Shown in pieces: positions 14,664-63,701 of a stretch of 64,000 bases of DNA (its first letter is position 1; each line of letters opens with the position of its first letter). Below the pieces are notes generated by a model that had not been told where the DNA came from, searched no databases, and was given only the letters and a program-made list of their open reading frames with translations. A program made the translations under genes and the position numbers. Source of the DNA: Rhodospirillales bacterium 24-66-33 (GTDB lineage: Bacteria; Pseudomonadota; Alphaproteobacteria; Reyranellales; Reyranellaceae); the NCBI GenBank assembly GCA_002281855.1, contig NCHQ01000017.1, positions 1 to 64,000 on the forward strand, in the 5' to 3' direction.

Positions 14664-14672
14664 CGGCCTTCT

Positions 14673-16463: not shown

Positions 16464-16536
16464 GTGAATTCCTCCGGGCCGCAATATGCCGCGCTCGGTC
16501 GCTTTTGGCGACCGGCTCGGCTATTTTGGTGGCCAC

Positions 16537-40400: not shown

Positions 40401-40712
40401 CTATGCGGCTGCGGCGACCCTCGATCCGAAAAACGTGGTGGCAAACCGCATTCCGCCGGCACGCCGACTGACGCTCGTCACCCGGTTGAGACGGGGGGCC
40501 CAGCGTGCGTTCCTCGCCGCCTACCGGGAGGCAGCCGCGGGGCTGCCGGGCACGGACCGCAGCGAACTGCTCGACTTCTTCCTCGCCGAGAAGGCCGCCT
40601 ACGAGGTCTGTTATGAGGCGGCAAACCGGCCGGCCTGGGTTCCCATCCCGCTGTCCGGCCTGTCCCGACTGGCCGCCCGTCTCCTGAGGGAAACGCCACC
40701 GCAGGAGAATGC

Positions 40713-40716
<4 letters not shown>
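37414..40716 (+). CDS. treS: Trehalose synthase fused to maltokinase (TreS-Pep2)
   Basis: A 1100-residue bifunctional enzyme. Residues 1-555 are TreS (GH13), which isomerises trehalose and maltose: Asp216 in [11 protein letters not shown], Glu258 in LLAEANQWP, Asp324 in LRNHDEL. Residues about 580-1095 are a maltokinase, which makes maltose-1-phosphate from maltose and [11 protein letters not shown] with Asp949 and YIIDFEGEP with Asp966. The fusion channels maltose to GlgE, encoded just upstream. ATG 37414 overlaps the glgE TGA, and the stop overlaps glgB the same way. Confidence 0.95.
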
Positions 40717-42920
<2,204 letters not shown>

Positions 42921-45026: not shown

Positions 45027-46792
45027 AGACGAAATTCGCACACGACTTGCCCTTTGGCGCGTCGTTGCTCCCCTCGGGCGCGACGCGCTTCCGATTCTGG
45101 GCCCCGGCGCAGAAGAACGCGAGCTTGGAGATCGAGGGCGCGGCGCCGGTGCCGATGAAGGCGGCTGATGGCGGTTGGTTCGAGGCGGAAGCCGCCTGCA
45201 GCGCCGGCACGTCCTATCGGTACCGACTCGACAACGGCGTCTCCGTGCCGGACCCGGCCTCGCGTGTCCAGGCGGACGATGTGCATGGGCCCAGTCTCGT
45301 CGTCGACCCTCGAAGCTATGACTGGCGGCATCCGGATTGGCGTGGTCGCCCCTGGCACGAGACGGTGCTCTACGAACTGCATGCCGGTGCCTTCGGGGGC
45401 TTTGCGGGCGTGCAGGCCGCACTCCCGGTGCTGGCCGATCTCGGCGTCACGGCCGTGGAGCTGATGCCGATCAACGATTTCCCGGGGCGGCGCAACTGGG
45501 GCTATGACGGCGTGCTGCCCTTCGCACCCGATCGCAGCTATGGCACACCGGACGAACTGAAGGCGCTCGTCGATGCGGCGCACGGTCTGGGACTGATGAT
45601 GTTCCTGGACGTCGTCTACAACCACTTCGGCCCGGACGGGAACTATCTCTCTGCGTATGCGCCGGGGTTCTTCCGCGATGACATCGCGACCCCCTGGGGC
45701 GCGGCGATCGATTTTAGACGCGCCGAAGTCCGCCGATATTTCACCGAGAACGCCCTGTACTGGTTGCACGAGTACCGGTTCGACGGCCTGCGGTTCGATG
45801 CCGTGCATGCGATCTCCGAGGCGGACTGGCTGGACGAGATGGCCGCCGAGGTTCGCCGTTCGGTCGAACCTGGTCGGCACGTTCATCTCGTGCTCGAGCA
45901 TGACGGCAATGTGGCCGATCACCTGCGCCGGGACTTCGATGCGCAATGGAACGACGATGCGCACCACGTTCTGCACACGATGCTGACCGGCGAGCACGAC
46001 GGATACTATGCGGACTATGCCGACCAGCCGGCGCGGCGCCTGGCTCGGGCGCTTTCCGAGGGTTTCATCTATCAGGGCGATCCTTCAACCTATCGGAAGG
46101 GGGAGGGGCGCGGAACACCGAGCAACGACCTGCCGCCGACGTCGTTCGTGCTGTTTCTTCAGAACCACGACCAGATCGGCAACCGCCCCTTCGGGGACCG
46201 GTTGACCAGCCACGTCGGCCCCGAACGGCTGGAAGCCGCGATTGCCCTGCAGCTCCTTTCCCCGCATGTGCCAATGATCTTCATGGGCGAGGAGGAGGCC
46301 TCGACATCGCCCTTCCTGTACTTCACGGACCATACAGGCGAACTTGCCGATGCGGTCCGGGAAGGGCGCCGGCGCGAGTTCGCCGGCTTCAAGGGGTTTG
46401 CGCCGGGAGAGGGGACGTCGAGCATTCCAGACCCCAACGACCCCGCGACCTTCGAGCGGAGTCGCCTCATCCCCGACGCGGAGCATGGCCCGGCACGGCG
46501 TGGCCTCTACCGCAAGCTCCTCGATCTGCGTCGAGAAGCGCTGACTCCCAGGCTCGCGGGCGCACGATCTCTGGGCGCAACGGCGATCGAACCGTCGACC
46601 GTGGTGGCTCGCTGGCAACTGGGTGACGGCTCGACGCTGGTGCTCGCTTCGAATCTCGGAGGTGAGCCTGCGCAGATCGAGGGTTTGGACGGCAATCTCC
46701 TGTATGAAACACGTCCCGGAGCCGCGGACGCAGCGCGTGGTGGCCGGCTTGCCGGTGCCACCACGGTGGCGCTCATGGTGACCGCATCGTGA
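45023..46792 (+). CDS. treZ: Malto-oligosyltrehalose trehalohydrolase
   Basis: TreZ releases trehalose from the malto-oligosyltrehalose made by TreY. The 589-residue GH13 protein has a small N-terminal module (FRFWAPAQKNASLEIEG), ELHAGAFGGFAGV, nucleophile Asp in DGLRFDAVHAI, acid/base Glu in HLVLEHDGN and Asp in LQNHDQIGNR. It starts within the glgX stop (ATGA), and its TGA overlaps the malQ GTG. Cytosolic. Confidence 0.95.
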   Translation: MKTKFAHDLPFGASLLPSGATRFRFWAPAQKNASLEIEGAAPVPMKAADGGWFEAEAACSAGTSYRYRLDNGVSVPDPASRVQADDVHGPSLVVDPRSYDWRHPDWRGRPWHETVLYELHAGAFGGFAGVQAALPVLADLGVTAVELMPINDFPGRRNWGYDGVLPFAPDRSYGTPDELKALVDAAHGLGLMMFLDVVYNHFGPDGNYLSAYAPGFFRDDIATPWGAAIDFRRAEVRRYFTENALYWLHEYRFDGLRFDAVHAISEADWLDEMAAEVRRSVEPGRHVHLVLEHDGNVADHLRRDFDAQWNDDAHHVLHTMLTGEHDGYYADYADQPARRLARALSEGFIYQGDPSTYRKGEGRGTPSNDLPPTSFVLFLQNHDQIGNRPFGDRLTSHVGPERLEAAIALQLLSPHVPMIFMGEEEASTSPFLYFTDHTGELADAVREGRRREFAGFKGFAPGEGTSSIPDPNDPATFERSRLIPDAEHGPARRGLYRKLLDLRREALTPRLAGARSLGATAIEPSTVVARWQLGDGSTLVLASNLGGEPAQIEGLDGNLLYETRPGAADAARGGRLAGATTVALMVTAS

Positions 46793-48843
46793 GCGACGAC
46801 GACATTCGCGCACTCGCCCGGGCGGCCGGCCTCGCCGAAACGTGGACGGATGCGCTTGGCATCCCGCAACAGGTTTCGACTGAGTCCCTCCGTCGAATTC
46901 TCGACGCCCTGGGTTTCGGGACCGCGTCGTCTGCGGATCTCGAAGAGAGCCGACGCCGACTGGGCCCGCCCAGCACCTTGCCTCCGCTCGTAACGGTGAA
47001 GGCCGGTGCCCGTCTCACGCTGCCCGCGCGCGCTGGCGGCGCCGCTCGCGGGCTGCTCACCTACGAGGATGGCGGTGTCGCGACGCTGAGATTCTCGACG
47101 CGGGGAGACAAGCTGGTCGGCCCGACGCTCGACCGTGTCGGCTATCACCGGCTCGAATTTGGCGACCGGCAGGTCACCGTCGCGGTCGCGCCGACGCGTT
47201 GCGTGACGATCGAGGACCGTGCCGACGGCAAGCATCTCTGGGGTGTCGCGGCGCAGATCTACAGCCTTCGTCGGCCCGGAGATGGCGGTATCGGGGACGC
47301 AACGGCGGTACGCCAACTCGCGGAGGGAGCGGCCCGCCATGGCGCGGATGCCATCGCGCTCAGCCCGGTGCATAGCCTCTTCACTGCCGATACCGGTCGG
47401 TACGGCCCGTATTCGCCATCGAGCCGGCTCTTCTTCAACCCGCTGTTTGCTGATCCCGAGATCGTCTTCGGACCGGAGCGGGTGGCCCAGCATCGCCGCG
47501 ACGGGGAGGCATTCGAGGAGACGCCGCTGGTCGACTGGCAACCGGCGGCGCAGGCGAAGCTTGCCGTGCTGCGGCGTCTGTTCGACGACTTCGCGGCCAA
47601 GGACCTTCCGGGCGCGACTGTGGTCGCGCGGGACTTTGAAGCGTTCGTACGCGAAGGCGGAGAGCTGCTGCAGGGGCACGCACTGTTCGAAGCATTGCAC
47701 GGCAAGTGGCTGGGAAGCCAACCTCCACTCGGTTATTGGCGTGATTGGCCGCCGGCGTTTCGACACGGGCTCCTGCGGACAGACGATCCTCAGATGGCTG
47801 AATTTCTTTTGGCTGAAGCACCCACAGTCCGGTTCCATCAGTTCCTGCAATGGCTGGCGGCGCGATCGTTCGAAGCCGCCCAGAGGTCGGCGGTCGAGGC
47901 AGGGATGAAAATCGGCCTGATCAGCGATCTGGCGATCGGCATGGACCGCGCCGGCAGTCATGCCTGGTCACGCCAGAGCGATCTGCTCCTGGGGTTGAAC
48001 ATCGGGGCCCCGCCGGACGAGTTCAATCGAGCGGGACAGGACTGGGGCCTATCCGGTTTCTCTCCCCAGGCGCTCGTCGCGACGGGCTTCGAGCCCTTTC
48101 TCGCCACGGTGCGCGCAGCCATGAGGTACGCGGGCGGTGTCCGGATCGATCACATCATGGGTCTGCAACGTCTTTGGCTGGTTCCCGAAGGGGCATCGCC
48201 CGCAGAGGGCGCCTATCTCGACTATCCGCTCGACGATTTCCTGCATCTGCTCGCCCTCGAATCACACCGGCACGGTGCCGTCGTCATCGGCGAAGATCTC
48301 GGCACCGTACCGCGCGGTTTTCGCCGCCGCCTGACCGAGGCGGGTATCGCGGGCATGGATGTGATGTGGTTCGAGCGAAACCGCGGCAGTTTCCGCGCGC
48401 CTGCCCGGTGGCGGCGTGATGCCGTCTCCATGACGACGACCCATGACCTTCCTACTGTCGCCGGCTGGTGGAGCGGAAACGACATCGAAGTGCGGGGTGC
48501 ACTCGGCCTGGCGGGCGATGGCGAGGCCGACGGGCGGCAGATCGACCGTCGGCGCCTGTGGCGGGCGTTCGCCGCAGCGGGGACAGCGGACGGGCCGGCG
48601 CCGCCGCCGGAAGATCCGGGGCCCGTCGTCGATGCGGCGCTGGGCTTCGTCGCCAGTTCCCCGGCGCCCCTCATGTTGGCGCCCTTGGAGGATCTTCTCG
48701 GATTGAGCGATCAGCCGAATCTGCCGGGGACGATCGATCAGCATCCCAACTGGCGCCGCCGCCTGGAACCGCGGGCCGCCGACCTATTTGACGATCCCGT
48801 GGTCGCCAGGCGTGCCGCCACCATCGTGGCCCGCCGGCCATGA
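46789..48843 (+). CDS. malQ: 4-alpha-glucanotransferase (amylomaltase)
   Basis: MalQ disproportionates malto-oligosaccharides, moving glucan segments between chains. The 684-residue GH77 protein shows LWGVAAQIYSLRRPGDGGIG, nucleophile Asp in GGVRIDHIMGLQRLW, acid/base Glu in VIGEDLGTVP and Asp in TTHDLPTVAGWW. It starts with GTG 46789 overlapping treZ (GTGA) and overlaps treY (ATGA). Its place between treZ and treY suggests it rebuilds chains that are too short for TreY. Confidence 0.94.
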   Translation: MSDDDIRALARAAGLAETWTDALGIPQQVSTESLRRILDALGFGTASSADLEESRRRLGPPSTLPPLVTVKAGARLTLPARAGGAARGLLTYEDGGVATLRFSTRGDKLVGPTLDRVGYHRLEFGDRQVTVAVAPTRCVTIEDRADGKHLWGVAAQIYSLRRPGDGGIGDATAVRQLAEGAARHGADAIALSPVHSLFTADTGRYGPYSPSSRLFFNPLFADPEIVFGPERVAQHRRDGEAFEETPLVDWQPAAQAKLAVLRRLFDDFAAKDLPGATVVARDFEAFVREGGELLQGHALFEALHGKWLGSQPPLGYWRDWPPAFRHGLLRTDDPQMAEFLLAEAPTVRFHQFLQWLAARSFEAAQRSAVEAGMKIGLISDLAIGMDRAGSHAWSRQSDLLLGLNIGAPPDEFNRAGQDWGLSGFSPQALVATGFEPFLATVRAAMRYAGGVRIDHIMGLQRLWLVPEGASPAEGAYLDYPLDDFLHLLALESHRHGAVVIGEDLGTVPRGFRRRLTEAGIAGMDVMWFERNRGSFRAPARWRRDAVSMTTTHDLPTVAGWWSGNDIEVRGALGLAGDGEADGRQIDRRRLWRAFAAAGTADGPAPPPEDPGPVVDAALGFVASSPAPLMLAPLEDLLGLSDQPNLPGTIDQHPNWRRRLEPRAADLFDDPVVARRAATIVARRP

Positions 48844-51344
48844 CGCCGCGTGCCACCCTGCGGCTGCAGTTCCACCGCGGCTTCACGTTCTCGGATGCCG
48901 CCGTCCACGCCGAATGGATTGCCCGGCTCGGCGTCAGCCATGTCTATGCCTCGCCGATCGCCGTTGCCCGGCCGGGCTCGATGCACGGCTACGACGTCGT
49001 CGACCCGACCGCGGTCAATCCCGAACTGGGCGGCGAGGAGGGACTGCTTGCGCTTGCCAAGGCGTTGCGTGCCGTGGGCGTCGGTCTCATCCTCGACATC
49101 GTGCCCAATCATATGGCGGCCGATACCCGCAACGGATGGTGGCGCGACGTGCTGCGTCAGGGTCGGGCAAGCCCTCATGCCGCCTGGTTCGACATCGACT
49201 GGGAGCCGACGGAGGCTGGTCCGGCGAAAATCCTGCTGCCCGTTCTCGGTCGCCCGCTCGCGGAAGCGATCGAGGCCGGCGAACTCTCGGTCGCGCCCGA
49301 CGCCGAAGGCCGCGTCGCGCTCCGCTACTTCGATAACGCTTTCCCGCTGTCCGACGGCAGCGCCGAGGGTCGCGGCAGCCTGGCCAACCTTCTGGCCCGG
49401 CAACACTACCGTCTGGAGTCCTGGCGCGTGGCCGGCGACCGGATCAACTGGCGCCGCTTCTTCGATATCAACGAACTCGTCTGCCTGCGCATGGAACAGC
49501 CGGATGCCTTCGAGGCGGTCCATGCACTGCCATTTCGGCTCTACGCCGAGGGGGTGATCGACGGGCTCAGGATCGATCATGTGGACGGGCTGACAGACCC
49601 GGCGGGCTATTGCCAGCAGTTGCGCGAGCGACTCGATGGGCTGGCGACGCAGCATGGACGGCCGCGCGCATGGCTGGTCGTCGAGAAGATCCTGCTGAAG
49701 GGCGAGACGTTACCCAAGGGCTGGGGCTGCGACGGCACGACGGGCTACGACTTCATGGACGAGGTGAGTGCGCTCCAGCACGATCCGGCTGGCGAAGCCA
49801 TCCTAGCGAAAGCTTGGTCGGGCCTTAGCGGCCGGCCGGAGACCTTCGCGGATGAGGAGCTGATGGCGCGGCGCGAGATCGTGACCCGCAGCTTCTCCGC
49901 GCAGCTCGAGGCCTGCGCCGCAGCCTGGCAGGCCATCGTCGGGGACCTGATCCCACGGCCGACGCTGCGGCGGCTGCTGGCCGAATTCCTCGCCCACGTA
50001 CCCGTCTATCGGACTTACGGAGCCGACGACGGTCTCTCCGACGGCGATGCGGAGATCCTGCGGGAGGTCGCCGGGAAGGTCGCGCGGAGCTGTCTCGCCA
50101 CCGATCGCTGGGCGGTCGAACCACTGCTGGCGGCGATGCTCGCTCCGAGATCGGCTTCGGCCGCATGGCCACGCGCCATGGCGCGCTTCCAGCAGCTGAG
50201 TGCTCCTGTCGCCGCGAAGTCGGTCGAGGATACCGGCTTCTATCGCTACGGCCGGCTTCTGTCGCGCAACGATGTCGGTTTCGACATCGAGATATTCTCG
50301 CTGGATGTCGACGCCTTTCACGCGCACATGCAGCGGCGGCGCGCGGACTATCCGCACACGATGCTGGCGACGGCGACGCACGATCACAAGCGTGGAGAAG
50401 ATCTCCGGGCGCGACTCGCGGTGGTGAGCGAGTTCGCGTCCGATTGGACCGCGCTCCTCGCGCGCTGGATCGATCCGACGTCATCCCGGCTGACGCCGGG
50501 CGACCGGGCGATGCTGCTGCAGATGATCGTCGGCGCTTGGCCTCTTGATCTCGATCGGGACGACGCGGCCGGCAGGAGCGCCTTTGCCGAGCGTCTCAGT
50601 GGCTGGCAGGAGAAGGCCCTGCGCGAGGCTAAACTCGAAAGCGACTGGGCCGCGGTCAACGAGGACTATGAGAAGGACGCACGGTCCTTCACCATGCGCC
50701 TCGTAGCCGAAGCGGCCATGCCCGATTTTCTCGACGACCTGCTTGCCTTCGTGCGCCGGATCGCACCGGCCGGGGCGGTGAACGGGTTGGCCCAATGTCT
50801 TCTCAAGCTCACCGTGCCAGGCGTGCCCGACTTTTATCAAGGCACCGATCTCTGGGACTTCAGCCTCGTCGACCCTGACAATCGCCGAGCGGTCGATTTT
50901 GCTGCGCGAGCGAAGATGAAGGGCGCGTCGTTACCCGGTCTGGTCCTGAATTGGCGCGATGGAGCCATCAAACAGGCTTTGATCGAGCGGAGCCTGGCGC
51001 TCCGAAAGCGTGCTCCGCATCTTTTCGCGGAGGGGACCTATCGACCGGTAGAGGTCGAGGGACCGTTGCGCCGCTCGGTCGTCGCCTATGTTCGAGAGGC
51101 CGGTGACGAATGGGTGCTCGTGGCCGTTCCCCGGCTCATGGCGCCGATGATGGCGGAGCAGGGTGGTTTGGGCTTTCGGACAGGGGCGTGGTCCGACACC
51201 GCGCTGAGCCTCGACGGAAGTCTTACGAAGCGGGCGCACGATATTCTTAGCGGCCGCAGCATTGAACTCTCGCCACGGACGGGTCTCGACCTGCTCTGGG
51301 ACGAATTTCCCATCGCACTGATCTCGTCAGTTTCGCCACGATGA
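48840..51344 (+). CDS. treY: Malto-oligosyltrehalose synthase
   Basis: TreY converts the reducing-end alpha-1,4 link of a malto-oligosaccharide to the alpha,alpha-1,1 link of trehalose. The 834-residue GH13 protein begins TPRATLRLQFHRGFTFSDA and contains SHVYASPI, DIVPNHMA, Asp in DGLRIDHVDGLTDP, Glu in VVEKILLKGE and Asp in TATHDHKRGED. CLLKLTVPGVPDFYQGTDLWDF is diagnostic. Last gene of the cluster; no clear terminator follows. Confidence 0.96.
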   Translation: MTPRATLRLQFHRGFTFSDAAVHAEWIARLGVSHVYASPIAVARPGSMHGYDVVDPTAVNPELGGEEGLLALAKALRAVGVGLILDIVPNHMAADTRNGWWRDVLRQGRASPHAAWFDIDWEPTEAGPAKILLPVLGRPLAEAIEAGELSVAPDAEGRVALRYFDNAFPLSDGSAEGRGSLANLLARQHYRLESWRVAGDRINWRRFFDINELVCLRMEQPDAFEAVHALPFRLYAEGVIDGLRIDHVDGLTDPAGYCQQLRERLDGLATQHGRPRAWLVVEKILLKGETLPKGWGCDGTTGYDFMDEVSALQHDPAGEAILAKAWSGLSGRPETFADEELMARREIVTRSFSAQLEACAAAWQAIVGDLIPRPTLRRLLAEFLAHVPVYRTYGADDGLSDGDAEILREVAGKVARSCLATDRWAVEPLLAAMLAPRSASAAWPRAMARFQQLSAPVAAKSVEDTGFYRYGRLLSRNDVGFDIEIFSLDVDAFHAHMQRRRADYPHTMLATATHDHKRGEDLRARLAVVSEFASDWTALLARWIDPTSSRLTPGDRAMLLQMIVGAWPLDLDRDDAAGRSAFAERLSGWQEKALREAKLESDWAAVNEDYEKDARSFTMRLVAEAAMPDFLDDLLAFVRRIAPAGAVNGLAQCLLKLTVPGVPDFYQGTDLWDFSLVDPDNRRAVDFAARAKMKGASLPGLVLNWRDGAIKQALIERSLALRKRAPHLFAEGTYRPVEVEGPLRRSVVAYVREAGDEWVLVAVPRLMAPMMAEQGGLGFRTGAWSDTALSLDGSLTKRAHDILSGRSIELSPRTGLDLLWDEFPIALISSVSPR

Positions 51345-52775: not shown

Positions 52776-53300
52776 GTTTGGTTGGATATTCACCATTTGT
52801 GAAGTGGCAGACTTCGGGCACGGATGGCCCTTGGTGGCGCAGCCATAGGATCGCGGGATGACAGATCAGCCTCCGAGATACGCACGACATCAGCGCCGAG
52901 AGGCTCCGCAAGCGCCAGGAGCGCAGGCGGAACGGAAGAGGCGCCGCAACGCCGATTCGCAGCGCGGGCTCTTGTCTCTCAGATGCCTGGGCAGCACCCT
53001 CGCCCATCTGCCGCAAGACCGCCAAATCCTATCGGTCCGATCGCCAAGCGCATTGGCCGGATCGGCGGACGGATGATCTTCAAGCACCTCATCAAAATTC
53101 AGCTCGGATCGGTGTTGCGGCGGTAGCAGGGAGGTCCGGTATCGAGTCGGCCACTGCGATTCACGGAGTTCCCCGTGATCGCGCCTGGCGCTCCCTACGG
53201 AAGCGCGACAAGCGAGAGATTTCAGCGGCTTAGCCCCGAGTTTGGGGAATTACGGCCCCTTTGACCGGAAAAGGCTTTTCCCGGTCGCCCCCAAACCCGG
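52776..53300. other. Stretch without a supported gene, left of the phage region
   Basis: Several frames of 60-100 codons are open on both strands, but none has a good ribosome binding site or protein-like composition. A 5-base inverted repeat, TTCAC-CATTT-GTGAA (52789-52803), follows the terminator. At 53263-53286 GACCGG and CCGGTC enclose an A/T-rich hairpin. The phage left boundary is probably within or near this stretch, but no tRNA, integrase or duplicated attachment site was seen. Confidence 0.45.
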
Positions 53301-53470: not shown

Positions 53471-53662
53471 ATGCATAGCCCGGCCCCGGCCCCGACGCAG
53501 GCCCTGCCACTGCTCGGCGCGCGCCTGCGCAAGCTGGCCGAATCGGTCCGCTCGATCGGCTACGGCCAGCACCAGAACCCCGAACGCATTCTGTCGGCGA
53601 AGCAGCAGATCGCCGCCGAGATGGAGAAGCTGGCCGCCCTGGTCGAGGGAGGTCCGCGATGA
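53471..53662 (+). CDS. Small phage-region protein, unknown function
   Basis: A 63-residue protein, probably helical: LLGARLRKLAESVRSIGYGQ then NPERILSAKQQIAAEMEKLA. It overlaps the next gene by 4 bases (ATGA), which supports both. No signal peptide or membrane segment, and no family recognised. Confidence 0.6.
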   Translation: MHSPAPAPTQALPLLGARLRKLAESVRSIGYGQHQNPERILSAKQQIAAEMEKLAALVEGGPR

Positions 53663-54036
53663 GCAGGTCACCCGATTTCGACTGGTACAAGGACCGCGAC
53701 GACCTGGTCATCGAGGAGCAGGCGGCCATTGCGGTCTACACGAACCCGCGCGGCTCGATCGTCATCCGACAGAAGGGCGAGCTCGATCCTGAGACGTACG
53801 AAACCGTCGACTCCTGGATCGTGGTCGAGCCGCACTATGTCGCTCAGCTGGCGAGGGCGATCATGGCCCTGGCGCCCCAGCAGACCGAGACGCTGGCCCT
53901 GCCGGCGCCGGCCGACAAGACCGCTGCGGAACGGCAGCGACGCCACCGTGACCGAAAGCGTAACGGTAGCGACACCGTGACAGGCGTGACTGTCACGCCC
54001 TGCGACCGTAACGGCGCGGGCCTTTTCCCCGACTGA
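53659..54036 (+). CDS. Phage-region protein with basic C-terminal segment
   Basis: A 125-residue protein. The N-terminal 85 residues look like a small globular domain (DLVIEEQAAIAVYTNPRGSI, then VIRQKGELDPETYETV). Residues about 93-110 are very basic (AAERQRRHRDRKRNG), a pattern seen at the ends of phage DNA-binding and small-terminase-like proteins. Coupled to the upstream gene. Function is not recognised. Confidence 0.6.
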   Translation: MSRSPDFDWYKDRDDLVIEEQAAIAVYTNPRGSIVIRQKGELDPETYETVDSWIVVEPHYVAQLARAIMALAPQQTETLALPAPADKTAAERQRRHRDRKRNGSDTVTGVTVTPCDRNGAGLFPD

Positions 54037-54662: not shown

Positions 54663-55859
54663 ATGTTCGGCAAATTGCGCGCGCTCTTCAGCGGTGAACG
54701 GAAGTCGGTGGACGCCTGGTCGGCGCTCGTCGACGCCGGATCGCGCACCGCTGCCGGCATCATGGTGTCGCCCGATCGCGCGCTGCGGTGCGTGCCGGCC
54801 TATGCCGCGGTCCGCGTCATCGCCGAGACGATGGGGACGCTGCCGATTCACCTCTACGAGCGGAAGGCCGACGGATCGAAGTCTCGCGCCGACAAGCACC
54901 CGCTCTACAAGCTGCTGCACGATCGGCCGAACGGCTGGACCTCGGCGGCCGAATTCGTGATGGGGCTTCAGAAGGACGCGCTCACCCACGGCGCCGGCCT
55001 GGCCTACGCCAACCGGTCCGGTGATCGCATCGTCGAGCTGATCCGGCTGCCGGCCGGGTCGACGGCGATCGAGACCGACCGCGACACCCTCGAGCCCGTC
55101 TACAAGACCACGCTCAAGAACGGCGGCACGCGGACCTACCGCTGGCAAGACGTCCTGCACGTGCCCGCGCTCGACGGCATGGCGCCGATCAAGCAGGCCA
55201 GCGAGGCAATCGGCCTCTGCATGGCGATGGAATCCCACGCCGCCAATCTCTTCGGGCGCGGCGCCCGGCCGTCTGGTGTGCTCAAGAGCGCGAAGAAGAT
55301 CGCCGACGATGTCGGGGCCCGCCTCAAGGCATCGTGGCAGGGTGCCCATAGCGGCGGCAGCTCCGGCGGCACCGCGATCCTGGAAGATGGAATCGAATTC
55401 GAGGCGCTGACCTTCAACAGCGTCGACTTGCAGTTTCAGGAGCTGCGGGCCTTTCAGGTCACCGAGATCGCCCGGGCGCTGCGGGTGCCGCCGACGCTGT
55501 TGCAGGACTTCGGTCGGGCCACCTGGGGCAACGCGACGGAGATGAGCCAGAACTTCCTGACCTTCACCGTCATGCCGTGGACCAAGCTCTGGCAGGGCGC
55601 GATCTCACGGCTGCTGACCGTCGAGGAGCAGGCGACGTACTTCGCGGAATTCTTGGTCGACGACTTGGTAAAGGCCGACATCGCGGCGCGCTTCACGGCC
55701 TACGCCCAAGCGGTGCAGAGCCGGATCATCCTGCCGAACGAGATCCGCGCGATGGAGAACAGGGCGCCGATCGAGGGTGGCGACGAGTTCCCGCCGGCGA
55801 CCAGCGCTCCCATTGACCCGGCGCAGCAACAGCGCCCGAAACCGCGAGCGGTGGCATGA
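54663..55859 (+). CDS. Phage portal protein, HK97 type
   Basis: Portal proteins form the dodecameric ring at the capsid vertex through which DNA is packaged and ejected. ATG 54663 gives 398 residues. Typical segments are VPAYAAVRVIAETMGTLPIH, HPLYKLLHDRPNGWTSAAEF and FQVTEIARALRVPPTLLQDF; WGNATEMSQNFLTFTVMPW and the C-terminal NEIRAMENRAP also fit. It overlaps the protease gene by 4 bases (ATGA), the standard portal-protease-capsid order. Confidence 0.95.
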   Translation: MFGKLRALFSGERKSVDAWSALVDAGSRTAAGIMVSPDRALRCVPAYAAVRVIAETMGTLPIHLYERKADGSKSRADKHPLYKLLHDRPNGWTSAAEFVMGLQKDALTHGAGLAYANRSGDRIVELIRLPAGSTAIETDRDTLEPVYKTTLKNGGTRTYRWQDVLHVPALDGMAPIKQASEAIGLCMAMESHAANLFGRGARPSGVLKSAKKIADDVGARLKASWQGAHSGGSSGGTAILEDGIEFEALTFNSVDLQFQELRAFQVTEIARALRVPPTLLQDFGRATWGNATEMSQNFLTFTVMPWTKLWQGAISRLLTVEEQATYFAEFLVDDLVKADIAARFTAYAQAVQSRIILPNEIRAMENRAPIEGGDEFPPATSAPIDPAQQQRPKPRAVA

Positions 55860-56392
55860 CGAAGGAAACGGGTTTCGAGCTGGAGCTCGACGTAAAGGCC
55901 GTCACCGCCGAGGGCGAATTCGAGGGCTACGCCAGCATCTTCGGAAACGAGGACTACGGCCGCGATATCATGGTGGCCGGCGCCTTCACGAAGTCGCTGG
56001 CGCGGCGCCCGGCCGGCAAGGTCAAGCTGCTCCGCCAGCACTACACCGATGAGCCCATCGGCATCTGGACCGATCTCGTCGAGGACAGTCGCGGGCTCAA
56101 GGGCCGCGGCAAGCTGATCCTCGACACCGTGAAGGGTCGCGAGACGCACGCCCTCATGCGCGCCGGCGCCCTCGACGGTCTCAGCATCGGCTTCCGGACC
56201 CTCAAGGACCGCTTCGATCGACAGAAGGGCGTCCGGTTCATCGAAGAGGTCGACCTGGTCGAGATCAGCGTCGTCACATTCCCCGCGAACCCCAAGGCGG
56301 TGGTTTCCGCCGTCAAGAGCCAGGACACCGAGCGCGCGCGGGCGTTCGTGCTGGCGATCAAGAGGGTCGAGGAGGCCCTGCGCAGCAAATGA
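55856..56392 (+). CDS. HK97-family prohead protease
   Basis: A serine protease that trims the capsid scaffold domain during head maturation. In 178 residues it carries FEGYASIFGNEDYGRDIM, the catalytic His62 in LLRQHYTDEPIG and Ser110 in GALDGLSIGF, followed by DLVEISVVTFPANP, all typical of the U35 family. Overlaps both the portal and capsid genes by 4 bases, so all three are translationally coupled. Confidence 0.95.
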   Translation: MTKETGFELELDVKAVTAEGEFEGYASIFGNEDYGRDIMVAGAFTKSLARRPAGKVKLLRQHYTDEPIGIWTDLVEDSRGLKGRGKLILDTVKGRETHALMRAGALDGLSIGFRTLKDRFDRQKGVRFIEEVDLVEISVVTFPANPKAVVSAVKSQDTERARAFVLAIKRVEEALRSK

Positions 56393-57546
56393 ACCATGCA
56401 AAGCACTGGCGCGGGCTCGCCCCGCTGGAGACCAAGGCGGAAGGCGACGAGGCCGATCCGCTGAAGGCGATCGAGGCGCTGGGCGTCACGATCAACGGCA
56501 AGTTCGCCGACATCGCCAAGGAAATGAAGGCGATGGGCGACAAGGTCGACATCGAGATCGTGAAGCGCAATCGTCCCGGCACGGAGAGCAAGGACGAGGG
56601 CGCCGAGGTCGAGGTCAAGGCATTCACCACGTTCCTGCGCCAGGGCAGGGAGGCGCTCGGCGCCGACGAGGTGAAATCGCTGCGGGTATCCGATGACACC
56701 GCTGGCGGCTATCTGGCGCCGGCCGAGTTCTCCGCGGAGGTCGACAAGAACCTCGTGCACTTCTCGCCGGTACGCTCGGCGGCCCGTGTTGGCCCGACCA
56801 GCGCCGGCAGCGTCATCATCCCGCGCCGCACCGGGCGACCGACGGGCCGGTGGGTCGGCGAGACCGAGACCCGCACCGGGACCGAGTCGACCTACGGCCA
56901 GGCCGAAGTGCCGGTCGATGAGATGGCGTGCTACGTCGATGTCAGCAACAAGCTGCTCGAGGATGCCGCCGTCGATGTCGCGGCTGAAGTGGCCTTCGAC
57001 ATCGCCGAGGAATTCGGTCGCCTCGAGGGTGCTGCCTTCGCGGTCGGTGACGGCGTGAAGAAGCCCCTGGGTTTCATGTCCGACACCAACGTGCTCAACA
57101 GCGTGTCGGGCTCTGCCTCGGTCATCGCCGATGCCGATGGTGGCGTCGATGGCCTCATCAGCCTGATGTACGGGCTGCATCCGTTCTACCGCAGCCGCGG
57201 TGTCTGGATGGCAAACGGGCTCACCATCGCGGCCCTGCGCAAGCTGAAGGACGCCGACAAGAACTACATCTGGCAGCCCTCCATCCGTGACGGCCAGCCC
57301 GACACGCTGCTCGGCCGCCCGATCATCGAGGCACCCGACATGGCCGACATCAGCGGCGGGGCTTACCCGCTGGTCTTCGGCGACTTCACCCACTACCGGA
57401 TCTTCGATCGGGTCGGCCTGTCGATCCTCCGCGATCCGTACAGCCAGGCCACTGCCGGGTTGACCCGCTTCCATGCGCGCAAGCGTGTCGGCGGCCGCCT
57501 GGTGCGCGCCGAGGCGATCCGCAAGCTCAAGATCGGCACGAGCTGA
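56389..57546 (+). CDS. Phage major capsid protein, HK97 fold
   Basis: A 385-residue capsid precursor. Residues about 20-92 form a charged, helical delta (scaffold) domain that the protease would remove. The mature shell protein follows, with DDTAGGYLAPAEFSAEV, HFSPVRSAARVGPTSAGSV and LLEDAAVDVAAEVAFDIAEE. GDGVKKPLGF and VFGDFTHYRIFDRVGLSI near the C-terminus are typical of HK97-type capsids. Confidence 0.95.
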   Translation: MNHAKHWRGLAPLETKAEGDEADPLKAIEALGVTINGKFADIAKEMKAMGDKVDIEIVKRNRPGTESKDEGAEVEVKAFTTFLRQGREALGADEVKSLRVSDDTAGGYLAPAEFSAEVDKNLVHFSPVRSAARVGPTSAGSVIIPRRTGRPTGRWVGETETRTGTESTYGQAEVPVDEMACYVDVSNKLLEDAAVDVAAEVAFDIAEEFGRLEGAAFAVGDGVKKPLGFMSDTNVLNSVSGSASVIADADGGVDGLISLMYGLHPFYRSRGVWMANGLTIAALRKLKDADKNYIWQPSIRDGQPDTLLGRPIIEAPDMADISGGAYPLVFGDFTHYRIFDRVGLSILRDPYSQATAGLTRFHARKRVGGRLVRAEAIRKLKIGTS

Positions 57547-57620
57547 TCGACGGCGAGGGCGGTCCGGGCCCGGCGACGGGCTGCCCTTCGTCCGCTTCCC
57601 TCTCATTCCTGGAGAATTCA

Positions 57621-58043
57621 ATGCGCGATATGGCCAACAACATCACCCCGAAGCCGGTCCTCGCGCCGGCCGTCGGCACCGACGACACTGCGCTGGTCGG
57701 CGCCATCATCGATCGGCTGGGCTTCGATTCGCTGACCTACCTGATCCAGACCGGCACCCTGGCCGACGCCGGGGCGACCTGGACCGCGCTGCTCGAGGAG
57801 AGCGACGACAGCGGCATGTCGGGCGCCAACGCCGTCGCGGACACCGATCTCATCGGCACCGAGGCCCTGGCGGGCTTCACGCAGGCCGCCGATGGCAAGT
57901 GCCTGAAGCTCGGCTATGTCGGCGCCAAGCGCTATACCCGCCTCACGCTGACGCCCTCGGGCAATGCCGGCAATGCGCCGATCTCCGCCATGGCCCTGCT
58001 CGGCATGCCGCACCAGCGCCCGACGGCCAACCCGCCGGCCTAA
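57621..58043 (+). CDS. Conserved-looking phage structural protein of unknown role
   Basis: A 140-residue protein from ATG 57621, after GGAG in the 74-base gap behind the capsid gene. LTYLIQTGTLADAGATWTAL, then EESDDSGMSGANAVADTDLI and LGYVGAKRYTRLTLTPSGNA, suggest a beta-rich fold. Its place between capsid and connector suggests a head accessory or decoration protein; that is inferred from position. No enzyme motif is visible. Confidence 0.7.
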   Translation: MRDMANNITPKPVLAPAVGTDDTALVGAIIDRLGFDSLTYLIQTGTLADAGATWTALLEESDDSGMSGANAVADTDLIGTEALAGFTQAADGKCLKLGYVGAKRYTRLTLTPSGNAGNAPISAMALLGMPHQRPTANPPA

Positions 58044-58050
58044 GCCGACG

Positions 58051-58713
58051 ATGTCGAGCGATCCGATCTTCGAGGTCGTGTCAGCCGCCGAGTTGGAAGA
58101 CCGGCGGTTGACCACGGCCGCCAACGTGCAGGCTGTGCTGTTCGACGGCGCGACCACAGACACCGCGCTCATCGAGGCCCTTATCGACAGGGTCTCGGCG
58201 ATGGCTGCGCGTCGCTGCAACCTGGCGCGGGCTGCAGGTGTGGCGCCACCGACGTTCGGGCGTGAAACCTGCAGGGCGACATGGCGACCGCAAAGCGGCC
58301 GGCGCACCGGCACGCTGATGTTGCCCTGGCGCGTGCCGATCGTGTCGATCTCCTCTGTCGTCGAGGATGGGGTCACCCTGGATAGCAGCGCCTATTCCTT
58401 GCGGCCCGGGGCCATGCTCGAGCTGGCGCTCGACCGGTGCTGGTCAAGTGCGGGAATCGTCGTGACCTACGTCACGGGCTGGGACCTTGCCGACGAAGAG
58501 CAGCGTCCTGCTGATTTCGAGTCAGCCGTCATCGATCAGGTGAAGGTCATGTATCTGTCGCGTGATCGCGACCCCACAATCCGCAGTGAAGACGTGCCCG
58601 GCGTCCATAGCGCGACCTACAGTGTCGCGGGCGGCGACAGCATCAGTGGCAACGGCTTGTTGCCGCAGCTCGAGGCAGCCCTGGCCGACTACCGGGCGCC
58701 CACCATCCTGTGA
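58051..58713 (+). CDS. Phage head-tail connector (gp6-like)
   Basis: A 220-residue protein from ATG 58051, 7 bases after the preceding stop. The helical N-terminal part (LIEALIDRVSAMAARRCNL) and the late segment DFESAVIDQVKVMYLSRDRD, then VHSATYSVAGGD, fit head-tail connector adaptors that add to the portal ring. Its stop overlaps the HNH gene by 4 bases (GTGA). Family assignment is moderate. Confidence 0.75.
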   Translation: MSSDPIFEVVSAAELEDRRLTTAANVQAVLFDGATTDTALIEALIDRVSAMAARRCNLARAAGVAPPTFGRETCRATWRPQSGRRTGTLMLPWRVPIVSISSVVEDGVTLDSSAYSLRPGAMLELALDRCWSSAGIVVTYVTGWDLADEEQRPADFESAVIDQVKVMYLSRDRDPTIRSEDVPGVHSATYSVAGGDSISGNGLLPQLEAALADYRAPTIL

Positions 58714-59081
58714 GCGACCCGTTCTACCGGTCTCGGGAATGGAAGCGGCTGCGGGCTGCGACGCTGGCCCGTGACCCGGTGTGCATCACGCGGGGCTGCG
58801 GCCAGCCCAGCAGCCACGCCGATCACGTCGTGCCTCGCAGCAAAGGCGGCGCCGACAGCCTCGATAATTTGAGGGGTATGTGCGGGCCCTGCCATAACCG
58901 CCGGAGCGCGAGCGGCAATGCAGCACCCCGGGCAGTGGGCTGCCTGCCCGATGGCACGCCACGCGACCCCGGGCACCCCTGGCTGGCATGGGACGGCGGC
59001 ACCACCCCCGGCCCAAAACTTTCGCCGGGGGCCGACGACCGCGTGGGGGCAGTCGCACGCACTAAGTTTCGAAAACAGTAA
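58710..59081 (+). CDS. HNH endonuclease
   Basis: A 123-residue protein beginning with GTG 58710. The HNH core is clear: CITRGCGQPSSHADHVVPRS, KGGADSLDNLRGMCGPCHNRR, with paired cysteines for zinc and the catalytic His. Phage HNH proteins next to the large terminase assist DNA cleavage during packaging. It overlaps the connector gene by 4 bases and the terminase gene by one. The C-terminal 45 residues are Pro/Gly-rich. Confidence 0.93.
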   Translation: MSDPFYRSREWKRLRAATLARDPVCITRGCGQPSSHADHVVPRSKGGADSLDNLRGMCGPCHNRRSASGNAAPRAVGCLPDGTPRDPGHPWLAWDGGTTPGPKLSPGADDRVGAVARTKFRKQ

Positions 59082-60739
59082 TGGGCCTCCGTGGACCGGG
59101 TGCCAGGGCGCTGCGGCGGAAGCCCGGCGAGCCGCCGGCAGCCCCTCAGGAGCCGCAAAAACACCCCTGGGACGAGCCCGGCCTGTCCCGGGCCGAGCGG
59201 GTGATCCGGTTCGTCGAATCGCTCCCGGTGACCAGCGGCGCCCTGGCTGGCACGCGATTCCGCCTGCGGCCATTCCAGCGGAAGATGATCGGGCGGGTCT
59301 ACAAGACCACCCGGGCCGGCCGGCGCCAGGTCCGCACGGCCGTCTGGAGCATGGCCCGCAAGAACGGCAAGACCGATCTGGCCGCCCGCCTGGCGCTCTG
59401 CCACATCGCCGGGCCCGAGGCCGAGCCCCGCGGCGAGGTCTACAGCGCTGCGAACGACCGGTTTCAGGCCGGCCGAACCTTCAGCGAGATCTGCGCGATC
59501 ATCACCCGCACGCCCTGGCTGGCCGCCCGGGTCTCGATCCGGCGCCACTCCAAGGAGCTTGAGGACATCGAGGAGGCCGGCGGCACCGGCACGGTCTACG
59601 CCGCTCTGTCCGCCGACGTCGGCACCAAGCACGGCCTGTCGCCCAGCTTCGTGGTCTACGACGAGTACGGCCAGGCAGAGAAACCGGACCTCTACGACGT
59701 GCTCGACAGCGCCATGGGCGCCCGTGCCGAACCCCTGATGATGGTGATCTCGACGCAGGCGGCGCGAGACGAGGCGCCCCTGTCGCAGCTGATCGACTAC
59801 GGGCTCCGCGTCCAGCGCGGCGAGGTCGATGATCCGAGCTTCCATCTGACCCTGTTCACGGCACCACCGGAGGCCGACCCCTGGGAACGGGCGACATGGA
59901 AGCTGGCCAATCCCGCCCTGGGAGATTTCCGATCGCTCGAGGATGTGCAGCGGATGGCGTTGCAGGCGCAGCGCATGCCCAGCAAGGCGGCATCGTTCCG
60001 AAACCTCATCCTGAACCAGCGCGTCGACACCACGGCCCAATTCCTCTCGGCCGCGGTGTGGAAGCCCTGCGGCGGCGCTGTCGAGGTCGAGCATCTGAAG
60101 GGCCGCCGCTGCTATGGCGGCCTCGATCTCTCGCAAAGCCGCGATCTCACCGCGCTGGTGCTGGTCTTCGAGGATGATGACGAGTCCTACGACGTGCTGC
60201 CGTTTTTCTGGCTGCCGGCCGACGATCTCCGCGAACGCGAGGACACCGATCGCGTGCCCTATGTGCGCTGGGCCGAAGAGGGCTTCCTGCAGACCAGCCC
60301 CGGCCGGACGATCGATCCGAAAGCGGTCGCGCTGAAGATTGCCGAGCTGCACGGCCAGTACGACATCGAGGCGCTGGCATACGACCGCTGGCGTATCGAG
60401 GATCTTCGCCGCGAGCTCGACGCCATCGGTTGTGATGTGGTGCTGGTGCCACACGGCCAGGGCTTCAAGGACATGTCGCCATCGATCGATGTCCTGGAGC
60501 GGCTGATCTTCGAAGCCAAGATCCGCCACGGCGGGCATCCCGTGCTCACGATGTGCGCCTCGAATGCCAAGACCGCGAGCGATCCCGCCGGCAACCGGAA
60601 GCTCGACAAGCAGAAGTCGACGGGGCGAATCGACGGTCTCGTGGCGATGACCATGGCGGTCGGCCGAGCGGCATCGGGCGCCACGGCACGATCGGTCTAC
60701 GAGGGCGACGACCGGCCCGATGGTTTGCTGGTGATCTGA
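59081..60739 (+). CDS. Phage terminase large subunit
   Basis: The packaging motor ATPase and nuclease, 552 residues. The ATPase domain shows a Walker A-like MARKNGKTDLAA (about 91-102) and Walker B FVVYDEYGQ (Asp194, Glu195), with STQAARDEAP as motif III. The nuclease domain starts near YGGLDLSQSRDLTALVLVF (Asp349 metal ligand), and RKLDKQKSTGRIDGLVAMTMA is the typical C-terminal end. Unusually it lies after the capsid and connector genes rather than before the portal. Confidence 0.95.
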   Translation: MGLRGPGARALRRKPGEPPAAPQEPQKHPWDEPGLSRAERVIRFVESLPVTSGALAGTRFRLRPFQRKMIGRVYKTTRAGRRQVRTAVWSMARKNGKTDLAARLALCHIAGPEAEPRGEVYSAANDRFQAGRTFSEICAIITRTPWLAARVSIRRHSKELEDIEEAGGTGTVYAALSADVGTKHGLSPSFVVYDEYGQAEKPDLYDVLDSAMGARAEPLMMVISTQAARDEAPLSQLIDYGLRVQRGEVDDPSFHLTLFTAPPEADPWERATWKLANPALGDFRSLEDVQRMALQAQRMPSKAASFRNLILNQRVDTTAQFLSAAVWKPCGGAVEVEHLKGRRCYGGLDLSQSRDLTALVLVFEDDDESYDVLPFFWLPADDLREREDTDRVPYVRWAEEGFLQTSPGRTIDPKAVALKIAELHGQYDIEALAYDRWRIEDLRRELDAIGCDVVLVPHGQGFKDMSPSIDVLERLIFEAKIRHGGHPVLTMCASNAKTASDPAGNRKLDKQKSTGRIDGLVAMTMAVGRAASGATARSVYEGDDRPDGLLVI

Positions 60740-60873
60740 GCCCTCAGGCAGCCGGGGAAAGCTCGGGCAACAAGCGGCAAAGCTGAATTGGCCTCCGGGT
60801 CGGTGTTTCCGTGCATGGCGCGCCGGACGGCGACAATGATCAGCCGTCGCTTATCAGCACCACGGGACCGGCC

Positions 60874-63408
60874 ATGGACCTCGCCAGACTTTCCCTTGAA
60901 GTGAACAGCGACTCGGTGCGCCAGGCCACCGTCGCGCTCCGCGAGATGGTGCCCGCGGCGAGCGCCGCCGAACGTGCGGCCCAACGTTGGGGCACGTCGA
61001 ATTCTGCCGCGGCCCGGGCGACGGAAGACTTTTCCAAGCGTGTCCAGCGCACGATCCGCGACCTCGAATTCGAGCGTCAGCAGCTCACGCGCACGGCGGC
61101 GGAACGGGAGCGCTATGCCGTGCTGAGACGCGCCGGCGTCGCCGAGATGTCGGCAGAGGGGCGCGCGATTGCGTCCTCGGTGGCTGCCCTGCAAGCCCAG
61201 CGCGCCGCCTCGGCCAACGCGGCGATGTCGATGAAGGGAGTTGGCGCCGCCGGGACCGCGGCCGCGGGAAGCGTGGCGCTACTGACGCGAGCGCTGGGAC
61301 CGTTGTCTGTCTTGCTGCTCGCCGCCGCCGCCGCGCGCAAGGTTTTCACCGCTGGACTGAATGCAGGCAATCTCGGCGAGGAAGCGGAACAGGTCGGATT
61401 GAATACCGACCAACTGCAGGCCTATCGGCTCGCGGGAGCGCAGGCCGGCATCCAGGCTGAGCAATTCGATGCCGCCCTCACCAAGCTCACTCGGACGGTC
61501 GGCGCCGCGAACGATGGCAGCAAGGAACAGATCGACCTTTTCGAGCGCCTCGGCGTCAAGCTGCTCGACAACGAAGGCGGCCTTCGCAAGACCGCGGACC
61601 TCATGCCGGAGATCGCGCGCGGGCTTCTGAAGGTCGGCTCGGAAACCGAACGCAATGCCATGTTGCAGGACCTGTTCGGCCGGTCGGGGATGAAGATGGT
61701 CACTGTCTTGGGCCTGCTCGCCGAGGGGAACGAGAAGCTCGTCGACACCGCGAAACAGCAGAACGCGATTATCGGCGAGAAGACCATGGCCGCATGGGAC
61801 TCGCTGGGCGACCGGATGGCGGTGGCGTCCCAACAGGCGGACACGCTGTTCGCCACATTGGGCCGGCCCGTCGCCCTGGCCGGGCTGGAGATGATCAACT
61901 TTCATCTCGGCAACATGTTCGCCCTGATGAAGGGCATCGAGAAGACCTGGAGCTACATCACGTCGGGTCCCTCCGTGGGCACGCTGGAGACGCGGGCCAA
62001 GACGCTGCAGGCGACCATTGACGCCATGACGTCCGGAGCCGCCGGCGAGATGGACGACCTCGGCAAAGCCCGGCTCGCCGGCCTGTATCGGCAGTTGGGG
62101 GAGGTACAGCAGCAGATCGGCGACCAGCAGACCGCGGCCTACATGCCGCCCGTCACCGTCACGGCGTCTCCGATCGGCGTCCGCAATCCGACCGCCAAAG
62201 GCGGCAGCGCCGGCAGCGATCCCTATGCCAAGGCCGTCGAGGGTGCCCGTGAGTACGTCCTCACGAAACAGGCTGAGACTGCCGCGATCGGCTTGAGCAC
62301 CGAGGCCGCGGCCCGCCTGAAGCACGAGCAGGATCTGCTCAACAAGGTGATGGGCGACGGCAAGTCCGTCACCGATGCTCAGCGCGCGGCGCTGAGCGAG
62401 CTGGCTGCGAGCATGGCCGCGGCCGATGCCGGGCTCGAGGCGGCGAAGTATGAGAACGAGCGCCGCAGCCGGGTCGACGACTTCCTCGCGAACCAGGAGA
62501 TGGAGCGGCAGTCTATCTTCATGACGGCCGAGGCCGCGGCCCGGCTGCGATATGAAACCGAAATGCTGGCCGAGGCGAAGCGCCGGCTCGGCGATGTCTC
62601 ACCGCAGATGCGCGAAAACATCTCCGCGGATGCCGAGCAGATGGCCCGTAGCGAAGAGCAGACCCGCCGGCTCAGGGAGGGCATGCAATTTGCCCGCGAT
62701 CTGACGAAGGGCCTCTTCATGGAATTCGCCCAGGGCATCCGCGAGGGGCAATCGATCTGGGAAGCGTTCGGTAATGCCGGCCTCAGTGCCCTCAGTAAAA
62801 TCGCCGACAAGCTGATCGAAATGGCGGCGAACCAGCTGATGGCCGCGGCCTTCGGCGGTGGTGGAGGCATGGGCGGCATGGGTGGCGGTGGCGGCGGCCT
62901 CCTCGGAGGGGCGTTGAGCTTCATCGGCGGCCTGCTGTTCGAAAACGGCGCCGCGATCCACCGAGGCAACGTTGTCCCGTTTGCGCACGGGGCGGCCTTC
63001 GACCATGGCCATCTCACCCGCTTCGCTGCCGGCGGCATCGCGACGGAGCCGACCTACTTCGGGATGTCGGGCGGCCGCACCGGCGTCATGGGCGAAGCCG
63101 GGCCCGAGGCGATCATGCCGTTGACGCGCATGCCCGACGGCAAGCTCGGCGTCCAGGCGCATGGCGGACCCGGCCGCGTCGAGCCGATGCAGCGCGGCGG
63201 CGGTGGCTCGGGCGGCCGAAGCTCGGGAGGTGGTGACGGCCCCATCACGGTCAACGTCGAGAACCGCGTGACGGTCGGCGAGTTCGTTTCGCGGGCGGAA
63301 GTCAATCAAGCCATGCGGCAGGTCGCCCTGCAGACGAAGCAGTCCACGATCGCCGCCATTGTCGATATGCGGAAGCGTGGCGGCCTCAAGGACGTATTCA
63401 ACCAATGA
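60874..63408 (+). CDS. Phage tail tape measure protein
   Basis: Sets tail length. ATG 60874 (MDLARLSLEVNSDSVRQATV) gives 844 residues; GTG 60811 would add 21. There is a long helical region, a hydrophobic segment at about 130-160 (ALLTRALGPLSVLLLAAAAA), then more coiled coil and a Gly-rich stretch (GGGGGMGGMGGGGGG). The C-terminal GRTGVMGEAGPEAIMPLTR with DGKLGV is the lambda-gpH-type end. It follows the terminase by 134 bases, without the usual tail-tube and chaperone genes between. Confidence 0.92.
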   Translation: MDLARLSLEVNSDSVRQATVALREMVPAASAAERAAQRWGTSNSAAARATEDFSKRVQRTIRDLEFERQQLTRTAAERERYAVLRRAGVAEMSAEGRAIASSVAALQAQRAASANAAMSMKGVGAAGTAAAGSVALLTRALGPLSVLLLAAAAARKVFTAGLNAGNLGEEAEQVGLNTDQLQAYRLAGAQAGIQAEQFDAALTKLTRTVGAANDGSKEQIDLFERLGVKLLDNEGGLRKTADLMPEIARGLLKVGSETERNAMLQDLFGRSGMKMVTVLGLLAEGNEKLVDTAKQQNAIIGEKTMAAWDSLGDRMAVASQQADTLFATLGRPVALAGLEMINFHLGNMFALMKGIEKTWSYITSGPSVGTLETRAKTLQATIDAMTSGAAGEMDDLGKARLAGLYRQLGEVQQQIGDQQTAAYMPPVTVTASPIGVRNPTAKGGSAGSDPYAKAVEGAREYVLTKQAETAAIGLSTEAAARLKHEQDLLNKVMGDGKSVTDAQRAALSELAASMAAADAGLEAAKYENERRSRVDDFLANQEMERQSIFMTAEAAARLRYETEMLAEAKRRLGDVSPQMRENISADAEQMARSEEQTRRLREGMQFARDLTKGLFMEFAQGIREGQSIWEAFGNAGLSALSKIADKLIEMAANQLMAAAFGGGGGMGGMGGGGGGLLGGALSFIGGLLFENGAAIHRGNVVPFAHGAAFDHGHLTRFAAGGIATEPTYFGMSGGRTGVMGEAGPEAIMPLTRMPDGKLGVQAHGGPGRVEPMQRGGGGSGGRSSGGGDGPITVNVENRVTVGEFVSRAEVNQAMRQVALQTKQSTIAAIVDMRKRGGLKDVFNQ

Positions 63409-63701
63409 TCGATCCAAACGAAGATCCACGAATGGAGTACCTGAGGGCGCGCCGCGCTGAAGCGGAGGCCGCTGAGATCGAGGTCGTGACCGAGATTGCA
63501 GCGCAGCGCGCCACGCTCGACGGCCTGACCGATCAGATCGACGCGCTGCTGCGGTCGATCACTGAGAACAATGTGAGGGCCTTCGGCTTTCGGAACAGGC
63601 TGATCTCGCTCGGCGGCTCGCCATCGGCGGACATCATCGATGCCGCTCTGCTGCGCCGTCAAATCATCGGACGAATAAGCCACAAGGCAGTGAGGGGCTG
63701 A
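63405..63701 (+). CDS. Small coiled-coil phage protein
   Basis: A 98-residue protein with a helical heptad-like stretch (RARRAEAEAAEIEVVTEIAA, then TLDGLTDQIDALLRSITEN). It overlaps the tape measure gene by 4 bases (ATGA) and abuts the next gene, so it belongs to the tail transcript. No family recognised. Confidence 0.65.
   Translation: MIDPNEDPRMEYLRARRAEAEAAEIEVVTEIAAQRATLDGLTDQIDALLRSITENNVRAFGFRNRLISLGGSPSADIIDAALLRRQIIGRISHKAVRG

Follow-up and report, generated by a model that had tools for sequence, protein, structure and literature searches.

The window analyzed here, 64,000 nucleotides of Rhodospirillales bacterium 24-66-33 corresponding to bases 1-64000 of the 122,767-base contig C36 (NCHQ01000017.1) of a 6.1-Mb genome, carries near its right end a compact block of phage morphogenesis genes (54663-63408), and the question raised by this locus is what kind of element these genes belong to. 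An earlier, sequence-only reading had proposed a reordered phage lineage, a satellite-like element with its own head, or a partly deleted prophage. The sequence to the right of the window was read on the same contig, whose coordinates continue the window numbering; the island that holds the block is referred to as A. We conclude, with a probability of about 0.72, that the block is the morphogenesis core of an integrated, 17.1-kb satellite resembling the capsid-forming phage-inducible chromosomal islands (cf-PICIs), which would build its own heads, supply its own neck and tail ruler, and use the tails of a helper phage. Gene content, attachment (att) borders, relatives, selection and the pairing of neck and tape measure types are direct observations. 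A satellite is supported by an integrase of its own, att repeats on both sides, like islands in independent genomes, the grouping of its large terminase, low ratios of non-synonymous to synonymous differences (pN/pS), and the matching of its neck and tape measure genes to phage tail types.

The block consists of eight genes on the plus strand, in the order that had been claimed from portal to tape measure, and each of them matches a protein family. These encode the portal protein (54663..55859; PF04860 2e-90, phrog_12 2e-91), the S78 prohead serine protease (55856..56392; PF04586 4.8e-36), the HK97-fold major capsid protein (56389..57546; PF05065 4.4e-81), a 140-aa probable head accessory (decoration-like) protein (57621..58043; phrog_5707 6.8e-34), a head-tail adaptor, or connector (58051..58713; phrog_442 5.8e-19), an HNH endonuclease of the packaging module (58710..59081; PF01844 1.4e-9, phrog_2323 5.7e-19), the terminase large subunit TerL (59081..60739; PF20441 6.3e-41, PF03354 2e-18, phrog_9 9e-138), and a tape measure protein (TMP) of about 845 aa (60874..63408; phrog_8892 1.5e-29). 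The TMP more likely starts at ATG 60874 than at GTG 60811, since the alignments of its homologues begin at the former. The genes are also intact and coupled, as the sequence-only reading had stated: no internal stop interrupts any of the eight, pN/pS is low (see below), and overlaps of 1-4 bases join portal to protease, protease to capsid, connector to HNH, and HNH to TerL. The existence and order of the block are far beyond chance. The N-terminal 35 residues of TerL (MGLRGPGA...) look like the beginning of a P27-type small terminase; a fusion after loss of the small subunit gene would be a speculative explanation.

The borders of A were located from its att repeats. The left core, CCTGGCGCTCCCTACGG, is the 3' end of a tRNA-Glu (53184..53200, unstranded) and is an exact 17-bp repeat of the right core at 70320-70336, which follows shortly after a tyrosine integrase (69071-70306, +). 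Element A thus extends from 53184 to 70336, with the integrase at its right end. At 70320 the core is continued by 48 bp that copy the 3' half of tRNA-Glu(CTC), and the same stretch recurs at 82989. Locus L008, in genome G055, has an integrase 73% identical to that of A, adjoining an intact tRNA-Glu(CTC), and the core of A at each of its two ends, 10.5 kb apart; the left ends of A and L008 are 83% identical starting exactly at the core, whereas their host flanks differ. The border of A is therefore independently supported. The empty site was also sought through the left host flank, where the gene next to A is common to its relatives up to about 52722; in nine of these no tRNA-Glu was found within 1.5 kb, and the pre-insertion site was therefore not reconstructed.

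What lies between these borders is not a full phage. Family scans of the proteins of A recognized a TMP and no tail tube, chaperone, distal tail, hub, fiber, tip or lysis gene. The sequence-only reading had seen no small terminase, tail tube or integrase; neither of the first two is recognized anywhere in A, but the integrase is present, outside the window. Reading on beyond 64,000, as had been advised, thus yielded the integrase but no recognized tail or lysis gene within A. Nor did a conventional tail module appear immediately to the right. The nearest one found rightward begins at 113874, about 44 kb beyond the last integrase-side gene of A, and it belongs to a separate siphophage prophage, element C, which runs from 82989 to the end of the contig and encodes an integrase, TerL, capsid, tail tube, chaperone, TMP and tail fiber of its own. 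Between A and C lies element B (70320-82989), next in the tandem array and likewise at this tRNA-Glu core, with an integrase of its own. We considered whether A, B and C form one larger element, and rejected this, since the att copies split them into three units, each with an integrase, and C is equipped with a terminase, capsid and tail of its own.

A tail tube might be hidden among the small proteins of A, and three candidates were rejected. The 140-aa protein is all-beta in its AlphaFold2 (AF2) model (predicted local distance difference test, pLDDT, 80), and its Foldseek matches in the PDB are weak, one of them being the Carin1 phage capsid entry 8cjz (template modeling score, TM, about 0.5). 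Its homologue in the full phage G066:C19 lies directly behind the capsid gene and apart from the gene in the tube position; we therefore read it as a head accessory protein. The other two are a 98-aa protein coupled to the TMP (63405..63701, +), an open reading frame (ORF) with sub-threshold family matches only, and a 105-aa protein (63702..64019, +) that crosses the window end at 64000. The latter has no family match, nor any homologue in viral contigs apart from the same element, and no family points to a tube for either of them.

The head cassette of A, from portal to TerL, recurs with 54-93% protein identity in three compact islands of Reyranella-type genomes flanked by chromosomal genes, namely L006 (G066), L007 (G065) and L009 (G049), and also on the viral contigs L039 and L040. 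Looser relatives (L008, G021, L034, L041) have head and packaging genes in different gene orders and no TMP. Relatives of A measure 10-20 kb, lack a tube, and occur in Reyranella and across the Alphaproteobacteria; a TerL match of any kind is present in 10 of the 75 family genomes. A portal-profile search of viral contigs returned further islands in which, at a portal identity of at least 52% and where the contig is long enough, TerL lies behind the capsid genes; apart from the relatives already named, none of these has a long ORF of TMP size beside TerL. In a class-wide draw of 385 genomes, seven contain a portal match at E 1e-100 or better. Five of these are outside Reyranella (L232-L236) and show portal, protease, capsid, connector and HNH-type genes, in most cases a small-terminase-like gene, and then TerL; a tRNA gene is present in the fetched stretch, and an integrase was seen in two of the five. 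A small terminase is confirmed by family match (PF05119) in L192, L233 and L234.

In a tree of 93 TerL sequences, built by a quick method and including some long branches, the satellite TerLs all fall on one side of a single branch, apart from the phage TerLs (Shimodaira-Hasegawa-like approximate likelihood-ratio test, SH-aLRT, 93). The search for the same order in other genomes, which the sequence-only reading had recommended, thus found TerL behind the capsid genes in relatives as a rule. This arrangement is typical of an alphaproteobacterial satellite lineage and not a private rearrangement, and the idea of a reordered phage lineage does not hold in the form in which it was put. The genes themselves are conserved. 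In the comparison of A with L006, the portal, TerL, HNH and 140-aa genes have a pN/pS of 0.14-0.19, the capsid gene 0.34, the connector gene 0.43 and the protease gene 0.63; in that with L009, the four genes examined have 0.23-0.49, and for the TMP the comparisons are near saturation and less informative. These ratios indicate that the head genes are under purifying selection, and values as low as these are unexpected for a decaying prophage.

The TMP is present in five of these elements (A, L006, L007, L009 and L039), and its position after TerL varies. Satellite Hc1, Ne1, tail terminator and TMP were compared with those of siphophage prophages of the family, a sample of five satellites and four phages in which two tail types can be distinguished. 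Type 1 is represented by C54, in A's own genome, and G025:C109; type 2 by G066:C19 and G025:C42. C54 encodes the tube, chaperone, TMP, distal tail protein and fiber of a siphophage. The head closure protein Hc1 of A (64086-64484, +; phrog_161 1e-12) matches C54 and G025:C109 at 49% and 62%, respectively. Type 1 is also matched by Hc1 and Ne1 of L009 and Ne1 of L039 (42-54%), and by the TMPs of A, L009 and L039. Type 2 is matched by Hc1, Ne1, tail terminator and TMP of L006 and L007 (42-70%), the L007 TMP being more mixed, with identity down to 32%; the Hc1 proteins of L040 and L192 are likewise type 2. A and L006 are 91% identical in the portal and 93% in TerL, yet they have different neck and TMP sets. 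In the TerL tree, moreover, A clusters with L040 and L006, both type 2, though its own set is type 1; hence, the sets have been exchanged.

The length of the TMP tracks the tail type, at about 845-950 aa for type 1 and 1214-1338 aa for type 2, and the satellite proteins are nearly full length (845 aa against about 855-925, and 1214-1310 against 1257-1338). The TMP of A is 41% identical to that of C54 over 893 columns. Among the 75 family genomes, the best non-satellite match is a prophage of the same genome in two of the four TMP-bearing satellites whose genome is known: for A it is C54 (348 bits), and for L006 it is G066:C19 (1082 bits). The TMP of A is in addition a mosaic, one part of which shares 48% identity with its counterpart in the tandem prophage C. 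A sixth TMP, assigned to different PHROG families and encoded on the opposite strand (14668-16632, minus), lies beside the integrase of L234 (G209:C11), a distant satellite-like island at a tRNA-Ser in an alphaproteobacterium of another family; this suggests an independent acquisition.

We propose the following mechanism. Given an active helper siphophage, the satellite would use its own integrase to excise and would assemble HK97-type heads from its own portal, protease and capsid proteins. Its DNA would be packaged by its own HNH protein and TerL, and the heads would be closed by its connector and Hc1. Because no genes for tube, tip, fiber or lysis are recognized in A, these functions would be supplied by the helper. 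In the tails that dock onto the satellite neck, the satellite TMP would replace that of the helper, giving rise to chimeric tails, a step with proven precedent in the TMP replacement of the Vibrio phage-inducible chromosomal island-like elements (PLEs; PMC12987554). Neck genes and TMP would thereby act as a swappable docking cassette matched to a single helper tail type, and the best helper candidates for A would be phages like prophage C54. A more tentative idea, which we regard as possible rather than probable, is that this cassette decides which helper tail is usable, that satellites exchange it without changing the head cassette, and that the satellite ruler makes helper tail parts into tails fitting satellite heads, robbing the helper.

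The same gene set could be what is left of a decayed prophage, whose tail, lysis and small terminase genes were lost while intact head genes and a TMP were kept by chance. Genes that a full phage needs are indeed missing from A, and the tandem array is a place where deletions come easily. But the same parts are missing from independent islands at different sites, the genes are intact with low pN/pS, the att sites and the integrase of A are in place, and its TerL groups with those of other satellites. On the strength of the independent relatives, the selection and the att sites we reject this explanation as quite improbable, and the partly deleted prophage of the sequence-only reading is disfavored with it, whereas its satellite-like element with its own head is supported by the integrase, the att sites on both sides, the same gene set in independent islands and the lack of recognized tube, tip and lysis genes. 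A complete HK97-like siphophage prophage would have tube, chaperone, tip and lysis genes, none of which is recognized within the att borders. A set of alphaproteobacterial head genes that is not accompanied by tail or lysis genes also brings to mind a gene transfer agent, or a domesticated head cluster that packages host DNA. Gene transfer agent clusters, however, are stable host genes with tails, whereas A has its own integrase and tRNA att repeats, and its kind is sporadic among the family genomes and sits at different sites; this explanation is highly improbable.

A further alternative accepts a capsid-forming satellite but takes its TMP as a decoy, which would bind helper tail proteins and block helper tail assembly without being built into tails. 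The TMP is a known target of tail-blocking defenses (Tab, PMC10884400; Rta, PMC12987554), and some of the relatives do without one. The satellite TMPs are nearly full length for their types, however, and they travel with neck proteins of the matching tail type, which a decoy would not need; a decoy is therefore unlikely. Several observations also weigh against a capsid-forming satellite that uses helper tails. Its excision, helper use and chimeric tails are steps that we infer. No small terminase is recognized among the scanned proteins of A, except for a partial phrog_4581 match in the HNH gene, although the AlpA-like protein (68699-69001, +; winged helix) is possibly a hidden one. No replication gene is recognized in A either, which would also suit a decayed prophage, and no tail assembly chaperone or hub lies beside its TMP, unlike in the PLEs. 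A search of viral contigs for the attP junction of A found none. Finally, the TMP is absent from L040, L008 and L192 and is thus not essential to this kind of element, and the prophages that best match the TMPs of L007 and L009 are not in their own assemblies.

Among known systems, A most resembles the cf-PICIs, which have their own head and packaging genes and helper-derived tails (PMC10690885, PMC13230959). The likeness lies in its size, in the integrase with att sites, in its own portal, protease, capsid, connectors, HNH and TerL, and in the lack of recognized tail tube and lysis genes. It differs in that A carries a TMP, belongs to an alphaproteobacterial lineage and has no recognized small terminase, a gene that is part of the cf-PICI packaging set (PMC10690885) and that L192, L233 and L234 have. 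By function A would work like a cf-PICI, and we call it cf-PICI-like on gene content rather than on sequence comparison with published cf-PICIs; because a small terminase was looked for in A and not found, we assign it to that family only with reservations. The presence of a TMP in a capsid-forming satellite has been noted before, in 2026, when putative tmp genes were shown in cf-PICIs, as gene maps only (Extended Data Fig. 10 of PMC12987554). The difference is that here neck genes and TMP jointly match one helper tail type, and matching co-resident prophages are named.

The Vibrio cholerae elements PLE1, PLE4 and PLE11 likewise have their own TMP, expected in chimeric tails made otherwise of helper parts (PMC12987554). 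PLE virions contain the satellite TMP in place of that of the helper, and transfer drops by 96-99.9% when the satellite TMP is removed (PMC12987554). PLEs differ from A in that they use the helper capsid protein, rely on a helper with a contractile tail (ICP1) and also encode a tail chaperone and hub, whereas A has its own capsid gene, proposed siphophage helpers, and no recognized chaperone or hub. The Streptomyces satellite MulchRoom is similar in having its own capsid and packaging genes, an integrase and a helper tail, but it is reported to have no homology to cf-PICIs and no tail genes, its helper is virulent, and it has terminal repeats (PMC10690885). What appears to be new in A and its relatives is thus the swappable pairing of neck genes and TMP with a helper tail type, as seen in five satellites and four phages. 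cf-PICIs depend on helper tails, and the joining of one head cassette to sets of two different tail types yields a rule for pairing satellites with helpers that can be put to the test. A second suggestion from this joining is that chimeric tails built on a satellite ruler, so far demonstrated only for Vibrio PLEs, are more widespread.

The remaining genes of A lie on either side of the block. To its left are a small conserved satellite gene of 63 aa (53471..53662, +), with homologues in L007, L008 and L009, and a gene of 125 aa (53659..54036, +) with a 52% identical homologue in the equivalent place in L008. To its right, Hc1 is followed by a 292-aa Cys-rich HNH-like protein (64484-65362, +) and by a cargo gene of the single-gene candidate defense family PDC-S67 (65415-66257, -; PADLOC 3e-19). 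Of a regulator and replication module of the cf-PICI type (AlpA or Stl, primase or Rep), A has two candidate regulators, a CopG-like repressor (66254-66463, -) and the AlpA-like protein, and no recognized replication protein; L007 has a RepA/AAA_25-type ATPase.

Element B contains an int-alpA RNA (RF02996), a primase/helicase, a PAPS-reductase/BrxP-like gene, an SRAP-like protein and a small-terminase-like gene (phrog_2538 3.4e-5), and no head or tail genes were recognized in it; it is probably a second, ordinary PICI-like satellite. Two adjacent genes in B (78558-79578) match the candidate defense pair PDC-M19A / PDC-M19B (PADLOC 8e-31 and 5e-23). An IMG/VR record of a single 75.7-kb virus (L038, IMGVR_UViG_3300038704_000073) matches C36 at 100% identity from 54263 onward over the compared stretch and contains both inner att copies; it is probably a merger of three or more tandem elements. 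At another place in this genome, an intact tRNA-Glu(CTC) (L184, G000:C9, about 49219-49294) has on its 3' side an SRAP-like gene resembling that of B, and may mark a further element or the opposite end of the array. Farther left in the window, at 37267-51344, the translations were read of a large, ordinary-looking trehalose/glycogen cluster, which encodes a maltokinase-fused trehalose synthase, branching and debranching enzymes, TreZ, MalQ and TreY.

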